A DNA stretch of 64,000 bases from Cognatiluteimonas profundi (GTDB lineage: Bacteria > Pseudomonadota > Gammaproteobacteria > Xanthomonadales > Xanthomonadaceae), in assembly GCF_009792795.1 (NCBI RefSeq), contig NZ_VKHQ01000003.1, forward strand, positions 62,001 through 126,000, in the 5' to 3' direction. The notes under the pieces were generated by a model. The model did not search any database. It was not told the origin of the DNA and was given only the letters and a program-made list of their open reading frames with translations. The translations under genes and the position numbers were made by a program. This document shows positions 3,471-46,485 of the stretch, piece after piece. Every line of letters begins with the position of its first letter. Within the stretch, counting starts at the first letter, position 1.

Positions 3471-3484
3471 TTGACCGGGGTCAA
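3471..3484 (+). promoter_or_regulatory. FNR/ANR-type box upstream of the 79-residue gene
   Basis: TTGACCGGGGTCAA is a perfect 5-4-5 inverted repeat of the FNR/ANR/DNR class (consensus TTGAT-N4-ATCAA; TTGAC-N4-GTCAA variants are known). Its centre lies about 84 bp before the ATG at 3561. Two other boxes of this class in the window lie at nearly the same distance from their genes, which supports a real operator. Binding itself is inferred. Confidence 0.55.
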
Positions 3485-3560: not shown

Positions 3561-3800
3561 ATGGAATTCCACATCAGGCTGATCGGGCCGGTAGCGGGGC
3601 TTGCGGCAATCGAGGAGGCGATCCAGGCAGCGGATCCATCGGCGCTGGTGGATGTCGACCCTAGCGGCAACACGTTGCGGATCGCGACGTCGATCGATGC
3701 AGTGCAGCTGGTCTCGCTGGTCTGCGGGGCGGGATTGCCGATCACGCCGGATCGGGTCCGGCAGTTGCCGTCGATCTGCTGTGGTGGCTGCAGCGGCTGA
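3561..3800 (+). CDS. small ferredoxin-fold-like protein, 79 residues, likely oxygen-regulated
   Basis: The ATG at 3561 follows GAGGGG with short spacing. The sequence alternates beta-like and helix-like segments (MEFHIRLIGPV, then AIEEAIQAADP, then NTLRIATSID), recalling a small alpha/beta ferredoxin-like fold. No CxxC metal site is present at the usual first loop. The C-terminus is CCGGCSG, a cysteine/glycine cluster that could bind a metal or take part in redox chemistry. A perfect FNR/ANR-like box sits upstream, and the gene converges on the azurin/cytochrome operon that has its own box. Function is unknown; a role in micro-oxic metabolism or metal handling is inference. A longer reading from 3471 would run through the operator and is not preferred. 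Confidence 0.6.
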   Translation: MEFHIRLIGPVAGLAAIEEAIQAADPSALVDVDPSGNTLRIATSIDAVQLVSLVCGAGLPITPDRVRQLPSICCGGCSG

Positions 3801-3881: not shown

Positions 3882-4322
3882 TCATTTCACGATCAGCTGG
3901 TCCGTCATCATCCCCAGGTGGCCCGGGGCGGTGCAGAAGAGCTTGTATGCGCCACCGGCCTTCAACTTGCTGCCCGGGAACGTCGTGCTGGTGCTCTCGC
4001 CGCCACCGATGATCTTGGTCGACGCGATCACGCGCGTGTCGCCCGGCTTGACATAGTTGTTGGCCAGGCCGGCTTTCAAACCGTCCTGCGCAACGGCCTG
4101 GTAGTCAGCCGCCGATGCGATGACCAGGTTGTGTCCCATCGCCTGCGCCGGGAGCTTGCCGGTGTGCGAGAAATTGACGGTGATGGTCTTGCATGTCGAC
4201 GACACGGTGGCGCTGTGCTGGTCGAACCTCATCGCGTCGTTGGACTTGAGGTCGATCGTGCAACTTTCGGCATGGACGAATCCGGATGCCAGGAATACGG
4301 CGAGGAAGAGAAGGGTGCGCAT
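3882..4322 (-). CDS. azu: azurin, periplasmic blue copper protein
   Basis: A 146-residue precursor with a signal peptide (residues 1-18, ending VHA) and a mature azurin beginning ESCTIDLKSNDAMRF. The type 1 copper ligands are recognisable: His64 in MGHNLV, then Cys130, His135 and Met139 in the C-terminal loop FCTAPGHLGMM, with the Cys+5 His and +4 Met spacing of azurins. Azurin is a one-electron carrier in the periplasm. The gene starts 39 bp after the Cyc2-like gene on the same strand, so the two are probably one transcript and could pass electrons to each other. Expression is probably driven by the FNR/ANR-type box upstream of the first gene. Confidence 0.93.
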   Translation of the reverse strand: MRTLLFLAVFLASGFVHAESCTIDLKSNDAMRFDQHSATVSSTCKTITVNFSHTGKLPAQAMGHNLVIASAADYQAVAQDGLKAGLANNYVKPGDTRVIASTKIIGGGESTSTTFPGSKLKAGGAYKLFCTAPGHLGMMTDQLIVK

Positions 4323-4361
4323 GGGAGGAGTCCTGTCGTGGGGGGAAGGGGCGGCGGGCGG

Positions 4362-5750
4362 CTACAGCGCCAGCCAGAGATAGGCGAACAAGGTGTTGTT
4401 GTCGCTTGCATTGCGGCCGGCGCCATCGACGTTGTGCACCGCGCCACTGAAGCGCGTGTAGAACGTGTACTGCAGCCCGATCCGGATGTTGGCCCAAGGC
4501 GCGCCCCAGGAATTGGCCTGGCCCAGTGGGTTCCAGTCAAGCTCCATGGTGCCGCCCTGCGTGTTCGGCGACCGGGTATCGCCGTACAGGATGGTGTCGG
4601 CGCTGCCGTTGTTGGCGAATGCGCCCAGCGTTGCACCCCATGTATTGCGGTACCAGTAGCTGCCATTGATGTTGAGTGCCTGCAACGAGTTGCGCAGGTG
4701 TTCCGCGCCGCCGGCATCGAAGGTCGCGTCCAGGTGCTGGCGCTCGTCGACGTACAGGGCGTTCACGGTGTAGGTGTGCGTGCCATCGCCGAAGTTCTGG
4801 TAGCTGGCGTCCACGCCAAGATCGCGGAAGCGGTCGGACGGGCCTCCAAGCGAAATCACGTTGCCAACGGGATCTTCCCCCGCGAGTTGGCGGCGGGCGT
4901 CGAGCGCGAAGCCACCGACTTCCAGGTTTCCGCCCCAGATATCCCAGGTGCGCGCGATGCGCGCGTAGGGTGCGGTCTTCGACAATCGCCCGTCATAGTC
5001 GGCGTTGACATGCCCGAGGAAGGCCGGTGACAGCGTGCGGAATCCGCCTGCCTCGATGTACCAGCTGCCGTCGATCTGGGTATAGGCACTGGCCCCGATG
5101 ACCTGGCCCCCCAGCCCGCCGAAGAGGATCGGTGCGGCCGGTGCACCAGGCGCCAGATCGGGCGCCATGTACGGGTATTGCCAGGCTGGCGCGGTGTTGA
5201 AGACGTCGCTGAGCGTCGGGTTGTTGCTGACCGTCAGGCCCCAGATGCCGTTGTGGCGGGCGCCGCTGAAGGTGCGCGCGTAGCGGAGCTCGGCGTTGTC
5301 CCAGCCCACGATGCCGCTGGCCTGTTCGTACGTGGCCTGGACGAAGGCGCCCAGGTGGTCACTGAGCCGGCCGGCGAAAAACAGCGACGCCTGCTCCAGC
5401 TCGGTGTTGTCGTTGCGGCTGAAATGCTTTCCGGGTGCTTCGGATTGCGCCTTCTGTGTATGCGTGAACGACTCCACCATCATCGCCGACAAGGGCAGTT
5501 TGGCGTCGTCGCCGACCTTCAGCGTGTATCCGGAGAGCTTGAACTGGCGACCGAATGGCGTCAGTTGCGGCCCGAAACCGCCAACGTGGCATCCGCTGCA
5601 AGGCTGCTGGGTCTGCCTGGCGTAGGAGGGCACCGCCTGCGCAGGCGGTGATTGCAGTGACAGAAACGAAAACAGCAGCAGGGCGACAGCCTGTAATGCA
5701 GTGGCGTGCCCGTTGCGTCCGCCGGCGGCGGTCTTGCGGCTGGTGCTCAT
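4362..5750 (-). CDS. Cyc2-like outer-membrane monoheme cytochrome-porin fusion
   Basis: 462 residues from ATG 5750, which has a strong GGGGGAG ribosome site; a longer reading from 5972 would cross the promoter. The signal peptide ends AQA near residue 39. A single heme site, CSGCH (Cys51, Cys54, His55), is followed by GPQLTPFGRQFKLSGY. The remaining 380 or so residues lack further heme motifs and show alternating aromatic/polar strands ending in LFAYLWLAL, as in an outer-membrane beta-barrel. An N-terminal YARQT-x-CxxCH, a P-x-L-x-x-F/GR-x-FK-x-x-GY stretch and a barrel is the layout of Cyc2, the iron-oxidising cytochrome-porin whose partner in acidophiles is the blue copper protein rusticyanin. 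Here azurin follows directly. Extracellular electron exchange is an inference from this layout; the heme and pairing are seen directly. Confidence 0.75.
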   Translation of the reverse strand: MSTSRKTAAGGRNGHATALQAVALLLFSFLSLQSPPAQAVPSYARQTQQPCSGCHVGGFGPQLTPFGRQFKLSGYTLKVGDDAKLPLSAMMVESFTHTQKAQSEAPGKHFSRNDNTELEQASLFFAGRLSDHLGAFVQATYEQASGIVGWDNAELRYARTFSGARHNGIWGLTVSNNPTLSDVFNTAPAWQYPYMAPDLAPGAPAAPILFGGLGGQVIGASAYTQIDGSWYIEAGGFRTLSPAFLGHVNADYDGRLSKTAPYARIARTWDIWGGNLEVGGFALDARRQLAGEDPVGNVISLGGPSDRFRDLGVDASYQNFGDGTHTYTVNALYVDERQHLDATFDAGGAEHLRNSLQALNINGSYWYRNTWGATLGAFANNGSADTILYGDTRSPNTQGGTMELDWNPLGQANSWGAPWANIRIGLQYTFYTRFSGAVHNVDGAGRNASDNNTLFAYLWLAL

Positions 5751-5822: not shown

Positions 5823-5836
5823 TTGATCCGCGTCAA
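5823..5836 (-). promoter_or_regulatory. FNR/ANR-type box for the cytochrome-azurin operon
   Basis: TTGATCCGCGTCAA matches the FNR half-sites TTGAT and ATCAA at 9 of 10 positions. Its centre is about 79 bp from the ATG at 5750. If it sits at the usual -41.5 of an activated promoter, transcription would begin near 5788 with a short leader, and a TACCGT hexamer lies near the expected -10. Confidence 0.6.
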
Positions 5837-5955: not shown

Positions 5956-5969
5956 TTGATCTGGATCAT
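5956..5969 (+). promoter_or_regulatory. FNR/ANR-type box upstream of the 129-residue gene
   Basis: TTGATCTGGATCAT matches TTGAT-N4-ATCAA at 9 of 10 key positions, with its centre about 75 bp before the ATG at 6038. Together with the box at 5823-5836 it makes a divergent control region of about 290 bp between the cytochrome operon and the 129-residue gene. Confidence 0.5.
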
Positions 5970-8112: not shown

Positions 8113-8344
8113 GGGATTCCTTGCAGGCGATGAAGGACGCCAGCATCCATTCATGGGTTCGCGGCCGACGATCGCAGCGGCCATGGATGCAACGCTGCGT
8201 TTGATCCACGCAGGCATCACCGGATGCAGTCGACGTGCGGGCGATGCGATTCACGCCGACCATCGGTCCCCAGGCGGCTGCCTTGTGTTCACTCCGGACG
8301 TCTTATCCTGTTACCGGTCAGTGTTCGAACAACGGAGGGACACC

Positions 8345-8611
8345 ATGGCAACCGGTTGGGCAAAAGAAGGCGCCGTGCAGGAGCAGATCGATGCGACCGT
8401 GAAGGACGCCATCGAGCGTGCCCGCAGCCAGCTGCCGCAGGGTCCGGGCCTTGAACGTTGCGAGGAATGCGACGCCGGCATTCCGCAGGCGCGCCGCGAA
8501 GCGGTCCCGGGCGTTCGCCTGTGCATCGCCTGCCAGGAAGCACACGACCAGGAGCAGGGCCATGCCAGCGGCTACAACCGCCGCGGCAGCAAGGACAGCC
8601 AACTGCGCTGA
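8345..8611 (+). CDS. DksA/TraR-family C4 zinc-finger protein (YbiI-like)
   Basis: 88 residues. A short N-terminal helical part (VQEQIDATVKDAIERA) leads into a zinc finger, CEEC then CIAC, separated by the family pattern GIPQARREAVPGVRLC. This matches the short DksA/TraR subgroup (E. coli YbiI type), which lacks the long coiled coil of DksA. Direct action on RNA polymerase is possible but not shown for this subgroup. The ATG has a GGAGGG ribosome site. It is a single gene with its own upstream region of about 230 bp next to the OYE remnant. Confidence 0.85.
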   Translation: MATGWAKEGAVQEQIDATVKDAIERARSQLPQGPGLERCEECDAGIPQARREAVPGVRLCIACQEAHDQEQGHASGYNRRGSKDSQLR

Positions 8612-8620
8612 CGCCGACGA

Positions 8621-9091
8621 TCAATCCGGCGCATGCCCTTGCAGCAGCGCCAGGCGATCGAGGAAAGGCAGCTGGCCATCGAGGATCCTGCGTCGCGCGA
8701 CCGGCAACGAAAACCACTCCACGCGGTCGATCTCCGGAAACGACGCCAGCTGCCCGCTGCGCGGCGGCCATTCCATCCCGAATGGATTGCTGCGCAGCGA
8801 CGTCACGTCGAAGTCGCCTTCCAGCGCGAAGGCTTCCACCTGCTTGCCACCGCGCTGGCGGACAGTCCCAAGGGTTTGAAGGACACCGTCCGGCGCCACG
8901 CCGGTTTCCTCGGCGAACTCCCGTCGCGCGGCGACATCTGCAGCCTCACCGGGTGCGAGTTCGCCCTTGGGAATGGACCACGCGCCATCGTCGCGATGAC
9001 GCCACAACGGCCCGCCAGGGTGGGCAAGCAACACCTGCAATTCGCCATCGCAATGCTTGAACAGCAGGATGCCGGCACTTGGATTGGGCAT
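8621..9091 (-). CDS. Nudix hydrolase
   Basis: 156 residues from ATG 9091, where the family-like N-terminus PSAGILLFKH begins; an upstream reading adds 34 unlikely residues. The Nudix box is complete (GELAPGEAADVAARREFAEETG: the Gly, the first Glu and the REFAEE core). The C-terminal part contains WFSLPVARRRI, typical of YjaD/MutT-like or diadenosine-type hydrolases acting on nucleoside diphosphates linked to another group. The substrate cannot be read from sequence. It ends 9 bp from the convergent DksA-type gene. Confidence 0.88.
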   Translation of the reverse strand: MPNPSAGILLFKHCDGELQVLLAHPGGPLWRHRDDGAWSIPKGELAPGEAADVAARREFAEETGVAPDGVLQTLGTVRQRGGKQVEAFALEGDFDVTSLRSNPFGMEWPPRSGQLASFPEIDRVEWFSLPVARRRILDGQLPFLDRLALLQGHAPD

Positions 9092-9167
9092 GGAGCGGTG
9101 AGCCTGTGGCGGTGGCGCGACAAGTCGCTGCAGCGCGCTGGGGTCGGTGCTAATGGATATCAGCGGA

Positions 9168-9533
9168 TCAGGAGGACGGCCCACGGTCCGCATTCGTCTT
9201 CGGACGCGTTGCGCGCGATGGCGGACGCCGTTGGCGCGGTCGGGCCTGCGGGGCGTGGCGTGCGGGTTCGGTGTTCATCGCCGCCACGTCGGCCAGTTCC
9301 GCGGTCCAGTCTTCGACGAAGCATTGCATCTGGTCGGCAAGCCAACGGCTGTGACGGGCATCGGCGGGCAGGACCGAGGTCGCGCGCTCCGCATCGGCGC
9401 GAACCGCATGCCACGCCTCGAGCAGGGCCATCGGATCGGGCTGCAACCGCAGCATCGCCCGGAGCATCAGATGCTGGACCGCACACTGTGCCTGCAGCAG
9501 TGCCAGTGTTTCTTCGATCTGTTGTCGTTCCAT
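9168..9533 (-). CDS. hypothetical helical protein, 121 residues
   Basis: The start is chosen at the ATG at 9533 (MERQQIEETLALLQAQ). The first 85 residues look like a helical bundle with Leu/Ala heptad patterns and several Trp residues. The last 30 residues are Pro/Arg-rich and probably disordered and basic. No family is recognised. It lies 76 bp upstream of the Nudix gene on the same strand and may share its transcript. Confidence 0.6.
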   Translation of the reverse strand: MERQQIEETLALLQAQCAVQHLMLRAMLRLQPDPMALLEAWHAVRADAERATSVLPADARHSRWLADQMQCFVEDWTAELADVAAMNTEPARHAPQARPRQRRPPSRATRPKTNADRGPSS

Positions 9534-9762
9534 GTCCGCTCCACGACGTCCACGGGCAGCCGCGTGCGCTGCTTGGGAACCGCTGGACGCTGCCCCGCGT
9601 GTGTGGTTGCGGGGCGGGACTTTCAAGGGTCGGCGAGGGAGCCTCTCGTCGACGTGAAGGGAATGTCAGCGCATTGCCGCGGAGCACTGCCGTGTCCGTG
9701 ATGCTGATCCGGCTCGCGCAGGCGGGATCGTCAGCCCGGCTGACGTGCAGCAGGTCGGTGTT

Positions 9763-10473
9763 TCAGAAACGCGCGCCTGCAGGCAGGTGGCGCCACTCGC
9801 CGACGGGCAGTTTGCCCAGCGGAATCCGGCCCACCCGGATCCGGCGCATCCACACCACGCCAAGGCCGACCGCCTCGCACATGTGGCGCAGCTGGCCGGG
9901 CCGCACGTCCTTGATGGCAAACCGCAACCGGACTTCGTTCTGCCAGCTGACCTTGCACGGCGGCAGCGAACGGCCCTGGTACTGGAGGCCATTGCACAGG
10001 CGCGCGATCCCGTACGGCACCGGGTCGCCCGAGATCTCGATGACGAATTCCTGTTCGATCGCGGCGTAGTCCTCGGTGAGCCGTCGCCAGATGCGCCCAT
10101 CCTGCGACAGCACCACCAGTCCGCTGGCGTCGCTGTCGATCGGCATCAGCGCGGTCAGCCCGTGCAGGTGCCGTTGCAGCAGCCGCACGCCGGAATCGTC
10201 GGTTGCGCTGCGGTTGGCCGCGGTGATCGCCCCTGCGGACTGCGTTGCATCGAATCCCGCCGGCTTGTGCCAGACGATCGTCGCCGGCTCGATCGCGTTG
10301 AGCTGCGCGTCCTCGGCGACGGTCACCTGCCCGGAGGTGACGGAAGTACCTGGCTGCTCGCAGACGACGCCATCGATCGACACCCAGCCGCCATCGATGT
10401 ACTGCTGCGCCTGCGCCCGCGAGCAACGCATCAGCTCGGAAACCCGCTTGTCGAGGCGAATCGGGTCGGTCAT
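9763..10473 (-). CDS. RluF/RsuA-family rRNA pseudouridine synthase, divergent
   Basis: 236 residues: an N-terminal S4 RNA-binding domain (IRLDKRVSELMRCSRAQA, about residues 4-55) and a TruA/RsuA-like catalytic domain starting IVWHKPAGFD. The catalytic loop reads MPIDSDASGLVVLS, so the catalytic Asp is kept but the usual RLD before it is PID. The C-terminal part keeps VRPGQLRHMCEAVGLGV and RIRVGRIPLGKLPVGEW. The family converts one uridine in 23S or 16S rRNA to pseudouridine. A more canonical RluF lies at 49289-50002, so this is a second, diverged paralogue. The 230 bp downstream, to 9534, hold nothing recognisable. Confidence 0.85.
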   Translation of the reverse strand: MTDPIRLDKRVSELMRCSRAQAQQYIDGGWVSIDGVVCEQPGTSVTSGQVTVAEDAQLNAIEPATIVWHKPAGFDATQSAGAITAANRSATDDSGVRLLQRHLHGLTALMPIDSDASGLVVLSQDGRIWRRLTEDYAAIEQEFVIEISGDPVPYGIARLCNGLQYQGRSLPPCKVSWQNEVRLRFAIKDVRPGQLRHMCEAVGLGVVWMRRIRVGRIPLGKLPVGEWRHLPAGARF

Positions 10474-19666: not shown

Positions 19667-19897
19667 ATGTCGAACGTCATCCGTTTTCCTGAATCCATGG
19701 GCACCCGGCAGCTGTCGGCAGCTGAGTATGCGGCAAGCGTTGCGGCGCTTGATGTGGACAATCTCCACAAGCAGGCGTTGTTGATCCATGATCAGTCAGC
19801 CCTCAGCGATCTGCTGGGCGGGCGTTCTAATGTGTTCTTTGGTGTCTTTGCGGCAGAGGAAGAAGACGAGGAGCAGCCGCAGGTTCTGGCGGCATGA
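19667..19897 (+). CDS. putative borosin precursor peptide 1 (76 residues)
   Basis: Leader: NVIRFPESMG, LSAAEYAASVAAL, then a long helix to SALSDLLGGR (residue 53). This pattern resembles the small helical borosin-binding domain of SonA-type precursors. After GGR comes a hydrophobic patch NVFFGVFA (residues 55-62), then an acidic run and PQVLAA. By analogy with known borosins the hydrophobic patch is the likely core for backbone N-methylation. RBS AAAGGAC. It is followed by a terminator-like hairpin, so this precursor may be the most expressed of the three. Confidence 0.75.
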   Translation: MSNVIRFPESMGTRQLSAAEYAASVAALDVDNLHKQALLIHDQSALSDLLGGRSNVFFGVFAAEEEDEEQPQVLAA

Positions 19898-20245: not shown

Positions 20246-20506
20246 ATGTCAGCTGCAATCCGGTTTCTTGAAACAGTGGGCAGCAATGCCTTGAGTGCTG
20301 CCAACTACGAAGGCGCTGTTGCTGGCCTGGAAGTGGACGAACTGCATCGAAAGGCGTTGCTGCAGAGAAATCCCGCTGCCCTCAACGATATTCTGGGGGG
20401 TCGGCCGACGATGTTCTTCGGGGTGCTGGCGCCGGAGGAGCAGCCGTTGGAAGATGAGCCGTTCGAGGATATTCCCGACGAGCTCCCGGACGAATCCGCG
20501 AATTAA
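20246..20506 (+). CDS. putative borosin precursor peptide 3 (86 residues)
   Basis: The third paralogue: AAIRFLETVGS, LSAANYEGAVAGL, DELHRKALLQ, AALNDILGGR (to residue 53), then the patch TMFFGVLA (55-62). Unlike the others it ends with a 24-residue acidic, proline-containing tail (PEEQPLEDEP, DELPDESAN). The tail could be a follower region removed after modification. The ribosome site is AGGGGGATAAG. The stop lies 20 bp before the TPR-GGDEF gene, suggesting one transcript. Confidence 0.75.
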   Translation: MSAAIRFLETVGSNALSAANYEGAVAGLEVDELHRKALLQRNPAALNDILGGRPTMFFGVLAPEEQPLEDEPFEDIPDELPDESAN

Positions 20507-40408: not shown

Positions 40409-41806
<1,398 letters not shown>

Positions 41807-41897
41807 CCGCCCATGATCGCAGCTTGAACGCGACGGCGCCCCTTACCGGCAAGCGTGCCGGTGTTTGCTAAGGTCGATGGCCGACATCCGGTCCGAC

Positions 41898-43481
41898 ATG
41901 AACGCCGATCTGCCCGCCCTGCGATTCGACAACAGATTCCTGCGCGAACTGCCCGGCGACCCTGATTCCGGCCCCGGCATCCGCCAGGTGCATGGGGCGT
42001 TGTGGTCGCGCGTCGAGCCCACTGCCGTTGCCGCGCCGCAACTGGTCGCCTGGTCCGGGGACATGGCGCAGCGCCTGGGATTCAGCGAGAGCGACGTGCT
42101 GTCGCCATGGTTTGCCGAGGTGTTCGCGGGCAACGCGGCGTGGGCAGGCATGGAACCCTTCGCCGCCAATTATGGCGGCCACCAGTTCGGACATTGGGCC
42201 GGGCAACTCGGCGACGGACGCGCGATTTCGCTGGGCGAAGTCGTCAACGCCGCTGGTGAGCGCTGGGAACTGCAGCTCAAGGGTGCGGGGCCGACGCCGT
42301 ATTCGCGCAGCGCCGATGGGCGCGCGGTGTTGCGGTCGTCGGTGCGCGAGTTCCTGTGCAGCGAAGCGATGCACCACCTCGGCATTCCCACGACGCGCGC
42401 GCTGAGCCTGGTCATGACCGGCGAGCAGGTGGTGCGGGACATGTTCTACGACGGGCATCCGCGTGCGGAGCCGGGGGCGATCGTGTGTCGCGTCGCGCCG
42501 TCGTTCATCCGCTTCGGAAATTTCGAACTGCCATCGTCACGTGGCGACGTCGCCTTGTTGCGCCAGCTGGCGGACTTCTGCATCGCGCGCGATTTTCCGC
42601 ATCTGCAGGCATCCGCCGCGGGCGGACAGCCGTATGCGGAATGGTTCGGCGAGGTCTGCGAACGCACCGCGCGCATGGTGGCGGGATGGATGCGCGTGGG
42701 CTTCGTGCACGGCGTCATGAACACCGACAACATGTCGATCCTGGGATTGACGATCGACTACGGCCCCTACGGCTGGATCGACAACTTCGACCTCGACTGG
42801 ACGCCGAACACGACCGATGCGCACGGACGGCGCTACCGTTTCGGCTGGCAGCCGAAGATCGCCTACTGGAACCTCACCCGGCTCGCCCAGGCCCTGTCGC
42901 CGTTGTTCGACGATGCCGCACCGCTGCACGCCGGACTGCAGCGTTATACCGATGCCTACGCGGCGGCCGATCGGGACAGCATCGCGCGCAAGCTGGGATT
43001 GCAGGATTGCCGTGATGCGGACGTCGCACTGATGGACGATCTGCACGCGCTGCTGCAGTCGTCCGAAGCCGACATGACGATCTTCTTCCGCGCGCTGTCC
43101 GATATCGACCTGCACGCGCCGTCCATGGCTCCGCTGGTCGGCGCCTTCTATGACGACGGGCAACGAGCCGCGGCCGAGCCCGCGTTCATCGACTGGCTCG
43201 GGCGATACGCAGCCCGCAGCCTGCAAGACCCACGTGGTGCGAGTCCTCGGGACCGTGTCGAGCGGATGCGGCTGGCCAATCCGCGCTACGTGCTGCGCAA
43301 CTACCTGGCCCAGCAAGCCATCGATCGCGCGGAAGCAGGCGATTTCGCCGGCATCACGGAATTGCTTGACCTGCTGCGCAGACCCTACGACGACCAGCCC
43401 GGCTGCGAGGCGTTTGCCGGCAAGCGGCCGGACTGGGCCCGCAACCGCGCCGGCTGCTCGATGCTGTCCTGCAGTTCCTGA
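41898..43481 (+). CDS. selO: protein adenylyltransferase SelO (YdiU)
   Basis: 527 residues. The start at ATG 41898 puts the family N-terminus [15 protein letters not shown] near residue 10; ATGs at 41865 and 41877 are also possible. Pseudokinase features include [34 protein letters not shown] and [21 protein letters not shown]. It ends in GCSMLSCSS, the conserved C-terminal Cys pair linked to redox control. SelO transfers AMP to Ser/Thr/Tyr of target proteins, and in E. coli helps control oxidative-stress proteins. Confidence 0.93.
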
Positions 43482-43500
43482 GCCCGGGCCGCCGGCAGCG

Positions 43501-43534
43501 TCAAAAAGGAAATCCGGCTTATTTGCCGGATTTC
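43501..43534 (-). terminator. terminator overlapping the end of the lysine-rich mini-gene
   Basis: GAAATCCGGC and GCCGGATTTC form a perfect ten-base stem (43509-43534). On the minus strand it is followed by CCTTTTTGA. The TAA of the small gene (43521-43519) lies in the loop, so the last codons are part of the stem. Confidence 0.85.
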
Positions 43535-43620
43535 TTGTCCTTCTTTGCCGCCCGTTTTTCCTTCAGCGACTTCTCGGGCTTCTTTTTCTCGGTTTTCTTC
43601 TGGTCCATGCCCTTGCTCAT
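43519..43620 (-). CDS. 33-residue lysine-rich protein
   Basis: ATG 43620 begins MSKGMDQKKTEKKKPEKS, continuing LKEKRAAKKDKKSGK: 14 Lys in 33 residues, one extended basic helix. The stop codon is in the loop of a strong terminator, which argues for a real, compact transcription unit. It lies divergent from the ABC-F gene and convergent with selO. A ribosome/RNA-binding role is guessed from charge only. It is similar in style to the 51-residue protein at 40150. Confidence 0.6.
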   Translation of the reverse strand: MSKGMDQKKTEKKKPEKSLKEKRAAKKDKKSGK

Positions 43621-43710
43621 GTCGCGCTCCGCGTTGGTTATTGCCGGGAAAGGAAGCGAAAGCGTACACCGCGACGGCGCCGGCTGGAATGGGGCGGCTA
43701 GACTACGCAC

Positions 43711-45597
<1,887 letters not shown>

Positions 45598-45627
45598 TCG
45601 ATCCGTTGCCGGCATGGTGGAGTCGCA

Positions 45628-46200
45628 ATGAGCCATCCAGCGGACGCACGGGAACCAGGAAATCTCGCGATTGCTGCGCCACATCGTCTGTTCTTCGCGC
45701 TCTGGCCAGACGATGCCGTCCGCTCCTCGATCGCGCAGGCCGCGTCGCTGCTTGACGACGCGACCGGTGGCCGGGTCACCGCGCCGGAGAGTTACCACCT
45801 GACGGTGTTGTTCCTTGGCGACTTCCGCCCGCTGCCGCAGTCGGTACTGTCGACGGCCATGGTGGCCGGCGCATCGATGCGCGTGGAGCCCTTCGAATTG
45901 TCGCTCGATCGGGTCGGCGCCTTTCCCGGAAACCACGTGCTGTGGCTGGGTCCGGGCGTGGTGCCCGCCGGCCTGCTGGCACTGCATGAGCGGCTGATGC
46001 AGGCGCTGGCGCCGAAATTGTCGATGCAGAGGGAAGCGGGATTCGTCCCGCACGTGACGGTCCGGCGCAAGGCGCGTGCAGCAGTGCCGCCGCTCACGCC
46101 GCCTGTCGTGCGATGGCCGGTGCGCGACTTCGTACTGGTCGACAGTCGGCCGGGAATGCCTTACCGCATCCTCGCGCGATGGCCGCTGCTCACGCGTTGA
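45628..46200 (+). CDS. thpR: RNA 2',3'-cyclic phosphodiesterase (2H family)
   Basis: 190 residues with the two HxT motifs of 2H phosphoesterases: SYHLTVLFLGDF and FVPHVTVRRKA. HRLFFALWPD at the start is also typical of ThpR/LigT. The family opens 2',3'-cyclic phosphates on RNA; in vitro ThpR can also ligate tRNA halves. Its ATG follows uup by 30 bp, likely co-transcribed. Confidence 0.92.
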   Translation: MSHPADAREPGNLAIAAPHRLFFALWPDDAVRSSIAQAASLLDDATGGRVTAPESYHLTVLFLGDFRPLPQSVLSTAMVAGASMRVEPFELSLDRVGAFPGNHVLWLGPGVVPAGLLALHERLMQALAPKLSMQREAGFVPHVTVRRKARAAVPPLTPPVVRWPVRDFVLVDSRPGMPYRILARWPLLTR

Positions 46201-46230
46201 ATCGGCCTCGCGCGTGCAAGGCGTCGGCGA

Positions 46231-46485
46231 TCAGGTTTCGCGGATGTCGAAACCGGGATTTTCATTCAGCGTGCCGTCGAGCTCCAGCACGGCGTAGGTC
46301 CTGCGGTCGCCGTCGACGATGACGGGGATCGAGGGCTGGAACATCGGGCGACGGACGAATTTCAGCTCCCAGCCAAATCGTTCCAGTTCCGACAGGGTCT
46401 GCCGCTGCTCGTCATTGAGCAGGCCGCGCAGGCGCGACTTGATTTCCTCGTCCGAAAGACGCCGCTCGATCGTGTTTGCCGTCAT
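46231..46485 (-). CDS. conserved hypothetical protein, 84 residues
   Basis: Starts at ATG 46485 with ERRLSDEEIKSRLRGLLND. It has an N-terminal helical part and a beta-rich end (GWELKFVRRPMFQPSIPVIV, RTYAVLELDGTL, ENPGFDIRE). Similar small proteins appear in many gammaproteobacteria without a known role. It converges on thpR. The 197 bp between it and the DUF72 gene show no evident gene or strong promoter. Confidence 0.8.
   Translation of the reverse strand: MTANTIERRLSDEEIKSRLRGLLNDEQRQTLSELERFGWELKFVRRPMFQPSIPVIVDGDRRTYAVLELDGTLNENPGFDIRET

Follow-up and report, generated by a model that had tools for sequence, protein, structure and literature searches.

What Cyc2 homologues do in bacteria that are not known to oxidise iron is left open in the parts of PMC8406198 and PMC5566968 available to us, and the locus described here poses that question anew. 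Within the window, by which we mean the whole 64,000-nucleotide stretch of Cognatiluteimonas profundi DNA that was analysed, a Cyc2-like cytochrome-porin gene is followed by a gene for azurin. A preliminary description, made from the sequence alone, had proposed that the two form an extracellular electron-transfer module, and both genes lie where it placed them, on the minus strand:

4362-5750, minus strand: Cyc2-like outer-membrane monohaem cytochrome-porin, precursor of 462 aa, assigned from the open reading frame (ORF), the structural model and homologues
5634-5750, minus strand: signal peptide of 39 aa, ending in AQA before VPSYARQT, assigned by inspection
5586-5600, minus strand: haem c attachment site CSGCH, the sole CXXCH of the protein, read from the sequence
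3882-4322, minus strand: azurin, precursor of 146 aa, assigned by model TIGR02695 (167.2 bits)

The azurin gene lies 39 bp downstream of the cytochrome-porin gene and is codirectional with it. Its product scores well above the cut-off of 105.1 bits for the NCBIfam azurin equivalog and shows the pattern of His, Cys, His and Met ligands typical of azurins. The neighbouring ORFs included neither cox nor rusticyanin genes, and a search with the rusticyanin model gave 0 matches in the window's genome. Because full-length homologues at 50-70% identity occur in several families and the pair is kept in two relatives from the window's own family, the arrangement is more than chance.

Counted from the end of the 39-residue signal peptide (placed by inspection), the mature cytochrome-porin begins VPSYARQTQQPCSGCHVGGFGPQLTPFGRQFKLSGYTL and carries CSGCH about 12 residues in, which bears out the claim of a single haem site near the mature N-terminus. 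Its structure was predicted from the mature protein aligned with 75 homologues (alignment A3, 76 rows). L121, L122, L123 and L164, in which our script did not recognise the motif, were dropped from this alignment and from the 80 named loci introduced below, and L160, for which a second copy had been picked, was dropped from the alignment. The predicted structure (mean pLDDT 93.0, pTM 0.90) contains 16 strands, each 9 to 17 residues long, and short helices that surround the haem motif. Foldseek returned 243 chains at E ≤ 0.001 for this model; among the best 50 of the 243, 47 bear titles of outer-membrane barrel proteins and the other three those of artificial zinc proteins. A second structural aligner matched OmpC, OprB, OmpF and similar porins with Z of 20.8 to 21.9 and rmsd of 3.1 to 4.5; OprO and OprP, which are relatives of Cyc2 according to the accessible part of PMC8406198, were absent among the 50 matches listed. 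The model (pLDDT 93) and the porin alignments together support the proposed fusion of a cytochrome to a 16-strand barrel, and they exclude the case, named in the preliminary description as grounds for abandoning its proposal, that the best homologues are soluble cytochromes lacking a barrel.

Across the 76 alignment rows, C13, C16 and H17 of the mature protein are invariant, as is K33, and M52 is present in 99%. M52 lies at the start of strand 1 and is a candidate distal haem ligand. Searches of Pfam and NCBIfam at E 1 gave no family for the cytochrome-porin, and neither did a sequence search of the PDB. A 36-row profile run against the PDB produced one weak hit, to a multihaem cytochrome (E 0.061 over 36 residues), which we do not regard as meaningful.

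To place the protein relative to Cyc2, we used the strict screen set out in the part of PMC8406198 available to us: at least 365 aa, a CXXCH, AXPXFAR[Q/K][T/Y] before it and PXL four residues after it. With 462 aa, CSGCH and a predicted 16-strand porin fused to the cytochrome, the window protein has the size and architecture of Cyc2; its first motif reads AVPSYARQT, one residue off (F to Y), and its PQL lies six residues after CXXCH, not four. The close neighbour L096 reads AVPAFARQT, which matches the strict motif. Because one residue of the motif deviates and PXL is two residues out of place, we name the protein Cyc2-like and do not claim strict membership for it. It shares with the Cyc2 of iron oxidisers (PMC7029218 and the accessible part of PMC8406198) a signal peptide, a single N-terminal CXXCH, a length of more than 365 aa, a 16-strand barrel and a downstream PXL, but differs in AVPSYARQT, in a PXL at six, in having no cox genes seen alongside and in an FNR-type promoter. 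The rus operon (Cyc2, Cyc1, cox and rusticyanin) likewise combines an outer-membrane cytochrome-porin and a blue copper protein in one operon, whereas the copper protein of the window is azurin rather than rusticyanin and its operon, judged from the neighbouring ORFs, lacks both rusticyanin and oxidase genes.

A connection to such clusters is found in genome G583, where a rusticyanin-like gene (137.2 bits, under its cut-off of 146.7) and a cytochrome-porin homologue are about 7 kb apart, with a cox subunit I gene (434.7 bits, below the curated cut-off) and a gene for a CtaA-like protein, weakly matching heme A synthase, between them. The window protein aligns end to end with this homologue (29% identity, E 8e-62), an alignment that, given the genes around the homologue, argues that the protein is Cyc2-like. 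We anchored our tree on the rus/cox-cluster homologues of the f162 genomes, the nearest substitute for verified Cyc2. A class-wide search for rusticyanin led only to these genomes, which we take to be possibly Acidihalobacter-like, and the rusticyanin model found nothing over its cut-off in the genus of G342. In the 135-row tree, the window and the G583 homologue share a 122-row branch (support 72) that contains 0 of 10 long-branched rows with other motifs, and a wider branch of 125 rows (support 99) excludes most of the long-branched outgroup rows. The strict screen also asks for a place in one of three clusters that hold a verified iron oxidase (PMC8406198, accessible part); on this tree, the window protein groups with rus/cox-cluster homologues. 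The first tree was built without L123, L193, L202, L203, L205, L210 and L219, and L216 was left out for its length. Short profile matches confined to the haem region probably represent other Cyc2 clusters, judged from their motifs.

A homologue of the cytochrome-porin is encoded in 62 of the 299 genomes of the order. In 21 of those 62, the window's genome included and one a broken copy, it belongs to a close subtype (at least 52% identity over the matched part); in the window's genus the gene is present in two of nine genomes, in one of them at a contig edge. A scan of species genomes yielded 80 named loci from Lysobacter, Dyella, Rhodanobacter, Frateuria, Oleiagrimonas and Thiomonas, with less close homologues from Zoogloea, Derxia, Caulobacteraceae and relatives of Sphingomonas; the subtype loci and the named loci overlap in part (L017 and L096, for example, are the same contig). 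In Rudaea cellulosilytica (L070, L123), the homologue is split over two ORFs, the larger of which has no CXXCH, and is probably a broken gene; L070, having no CXXCH, was dropped from the box count of subtypes given below. On the first tree, the window groups with Lysobacter sp. Bin1.18 (L096) and Lysobacter lacus (L098) (support 96), and this group nests among rows from Dyella and Frateuria (support 95 for six rows and 99 for 23). This one quick tree suggests that a Lysobacteraceae lineage may have received the gene from Rhodanobacteraceae. Rhodanobacter and Thiomonas, for which Cyc2-like genes have been described in iron-oxidising settings (PMC5566968, in the part we could access), also contribute sequences to the window's clade; these adjoin no azurin. 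Subtype C cytochrome-porins of other Xanthomonadales, located in ccm neighbourhoods (for example L020 and L021), have the same architecture and 29-32% identity to the window protein; unlike it, they adjoin a cytochrome c and have no FNR-type box.

Is azurin, then, the dedicated partner of this protein? Outside the window's clade, outgroup excluded, the next gene downstream in 46 of 71 tree rows encodes, as counted by pattern, a small cytochrome c with one or two haems, an azurin or some other cupredoxin, and this context supports the electron-transfer module that had been proposed. Within the clade, a downstream carrier is present in two of 44 rows, the window and L096, and is azurin in both. 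The partial locus L019, at a contig edge in the window's genus, has azurin too, and a codirectional gene for an Fnr-like regulator lies about 0.8 kb past it; L138, whose sequence ends 126 bases after the matched stretch, falls outside this readout. The pair-linked azurins of the window's family are 60% identical to that of the window; for the other azurin in the window's genome, the figure is 46%. In a separate, divergent clade that has no boxes (L154, L162, L163, L166 and L172), azurin again lies immediately downstream; two of these azurins were checked and reach 166 and 158 bits. Pairing with azurin is genuine yet uncommon, and it arose a second time in that separate clade.

At the level of whole genomes, a general association with azurin was rejected, as azurin occurs in 9 of 21 subtype genomes and in 95 of 278 others (p 0.48). 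With this lack of enrichment, and with only the window and L096 among 44 clade rows (plus L019) having the pair, azurin is not supported as a fixed partner; it is a local and repeated partner, not a general one. The adjacent cytochromes c, azurins and other cupredoxins, together with the repeated azurin pairing, point to the copper protein being one of several interchangeable carriers. The second azurin gene of the genome (L090, contig 17, about 8200-10202) has a dihaem peroxidase gene as its neighbour, and an exact FNR-type box is close to them. In L173, a metagenome-assembled genome titled as if from a manganese sample, an ORF resembling an FTR1-type iron permease and then a cupredoxin-like ORF follow the cytochrome-porin, both recognised by eye.

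A further regularity of the window's clade lies upstream of the gene. The consensus of FNR-type regulators is TTGAYNNNNRTCAA, and the following elements were located around the pair:

5823-5836: exact FNR-type box, TTGACGCGGATCAA on the minus strand, with 72 bases between it and the cytochrome-porin start codon
5795-5800, minus strand: -10-like hexamer TACCGT, about 22-23 bases after the box, a spacing common to homologues
5956-5969: weaker FNR-type box with one mismatch, from the pattern scan
3471-3484: FNR-type box, an exact palindrome, 76 bases before the plus-strand ORF at 3561-3800
3561-3800, plus strand: ORF of 79 aa behind the 3471 box, from the ORF list; it may not be a gene

The boxes at 5823-5836 and 3471-3484, which the preliminary description lacked, are the only two exact matches to TTGAYNNNNRTCAA in the 64-kb window; allowing up to one mismatch, there are five sites against 2.64 expected. 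The whole genome has 28 exact sites, two of them in the window, compared with three for the reversed pattern, and boxes elsewhere in it lie near hemN, ccoN, the copper nitrite reductase gene nirK and the dihaem peroxidase gene. Two Fnr-like proteins are encoded, one scoring 223.5 bits, just below the subfamily cut-off of 228, and the other judged by its cysteines only. The 79-aa ORF ends in CCGGCSG, converges on the azurin gene and has no relative among the loci compared. On contig 1 of this genome, five exact FNR-type sites fall within 4.6 kb (41790-46379).

Upstream of the haem codon, 17 of 22 close homologues, three of five subtype B and none of nine subtype C sequences have an exact box, and so do 39 of 76 named loci. 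Between 450 and 90 bases before the haem codon, the tree set has an exact box in 37 of 44 rows of the window's clade versus 11 of 82 outside it, and the reversed pattern in 0 of 126; upstream sequence is short in L119, L140 and L213. At offsets 22, 23 and 24 downstream of the box, TANNNT is present in 14, 18 and 8% of the 49 sites (about 20 of 49), against at most 2% (at most one of 49) at each of the other 36 offsets. A spacing of 22-24 is that expected of a promoter activated from -41.5. A scan of the promoter region for the sigma-70 consensus gave no site. The state of the box changes 15 times on the tree, so the box has been lost or gained often, and simple (Fisher) association tests, which ignore relatedness, overstate the number of independent cases. 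Two relatives tell against the reading of the pair given below: L096, which has the pair, retains a two-mismatch remnant at the same place and no intact box, and its close relative L098 has two boxes and no adjoining azurin.

Judged by these motifs, the promoter of the clade looks built for switch-on at low oxygen. This FNR-type promoter is the new point of our analysis; in our searches of the open-licence literature, we came across neither FNR control of a cytochrome-porin nor a cyc2-azurin pair. A conserved low-oxygen promoter indicates the conditions under which expression is to be expected, which turns the question of what the genes do into a simple test. In two Rhodanobacter loci (L055, L057), the boxed gene is flanked by ORFs that resemble, by eye, phosphoketolase and acetate kinase, an arrangement reminiscent of a low-oxygen gene island.

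Of the 21 genomes that carry the close subtype, 15 have a copper nitrite reductase scoring over its cut-off, compared with 58 of the other 278 in the order, and among family f12 genomes with any cytochrome-porin the corresponding counts are 14 of 19 and 5 of 27; relatedness is ignored in both comparisons. The remaining 6 of the 21 have no nitrite reductase over the cut-off, which counts against the reading that follows. The window's genome encodes copper nitrite reductase, cbb3 oxidase and dihaem peroxidase, as well as NnrS and a COX1-family protein that we read as a nitric oxide reductase.

Computation gave the fold, one haem site and the gene order, a conserved box accompanied by a -10-like hexamer, these enzymes in the genome and a link between the subtype and nitrite reductase. 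From this we infer, with a probability of about 0.5, that the pair is a low-oxygen-induced outer-membrane electron conduit that leads from an outside donor, probably Fe(II), through the haem to periplasmic azurin. An FNR-type regulator would bind the box at 5823-5836 and switch on cytochrome-porin and azurin as one unit when oxygen is scarce. The porin would admit a small reductant, most likely dissolved Fe(II), to the single haem of the N-terminal segment, the haem would hand the electron to azurin, and azurin may in turn feed the low-oxygen respiratory enzymes of the genome, namely copper nitrite reductase, cbb3 oxidase and dihaem peroxidase. At neutral pH, Fe(II) persists only where oxygen is low. 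This persistence, together with the activity of verified Cyc2 proteins, which act on Fe(II) according to the part of PMC8406198 available to us, makes Fe(II) the likeliest donor. Thiomonas strains able to oxidise Fe(II) at pH 5.5 carry Cyc2-like genes, as do the Rhodanobacter of culture KS and many bacteria not known for iron oxidation (PMC5566968, accessible part); against Fe(II) as the donor, a Rhodanobacter isolate from culture KS was reportedly unable to oxidise Fe(II) alone (cited in PMC11366258, as far as its accessible text goes). If the electrons do come from Fe(II), ordinary denitrifiers would be tied to iron cycling and to the debate over what Rhodanobacter does in nitrate-dependent iron oxidation.

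We extend this proposal to the whole clade only tentatively. Its Rhodanobacteraceae, Lysobacteraceae and Thiomonas-type denitrifying heterotrophs might all use FNR-controlled electron uptake at low oxygen, drawing on dissolved Fe(II) as an additional donor in nitrite or micro-oxic respiration and swapping freely between cytochrome c and azurin as the periplasmic partner. Silence of the system in aerobic or organic-rich tests would then explain why many carriers of the gene are not known as iron oxidisers.

The same setting would also suit a protective role, in which oxidation of Fe(II) at the surface during anoxia keeps Fe(II)/NO chemistry out of the periplasm and azurin is an electron sink only. 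FNR-type control and the co-occurrence with nitrite reductase fit conditions where Fe(II) meets nitrite, and the pair has no cox or rusticyanin genes among the ORFs beside it; however, carriers next to 46 of 71 homologues suggest that the electrons are used, and we consider protection without energy gain unlikely. Low-oxygen control fits an electron outlet as well as an inlet, with azurin or another carrier reducing the haem and the haem an outside acceptor (quinone, humic or ferric chelate) when oxygen is absent. The potential of azurin is high, which favours azurin as the recipient of electrons. Verified relatives moreover act inward (PMC8406198, accessible part), and we rate an outlet as somewhat less probable again.

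Two further readings give the haem no part in electron transfer. NirK, the presumed nitric oxide reductase of the COX1 family and NnrS, along with FNR-type control, would be the natural company of a porin whose haem binds NO or nitrite as a gate, a sensor or a means of handling nitric oxide; the recurrent neighbours of the homologues, though, are electron carriers, which makes this reading improbable. The porin fold, and the lack of an adjoining azurin in most clade members, would suit an ordinary small-solute porin with the haem as a structural relic and the azurin neighbour as a coincidence. We hold this to be the least probable explanation, given that CXXCH and K33 are invariant and M52 is retained in 99% of 76 rows, and that azurin pairing is found in a second clade too. 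Elsewhere in the window, two small tandem ORFs of similar sequence (19667-19897 and 20246-20506) lie upstream of an ORF of 609 aa.
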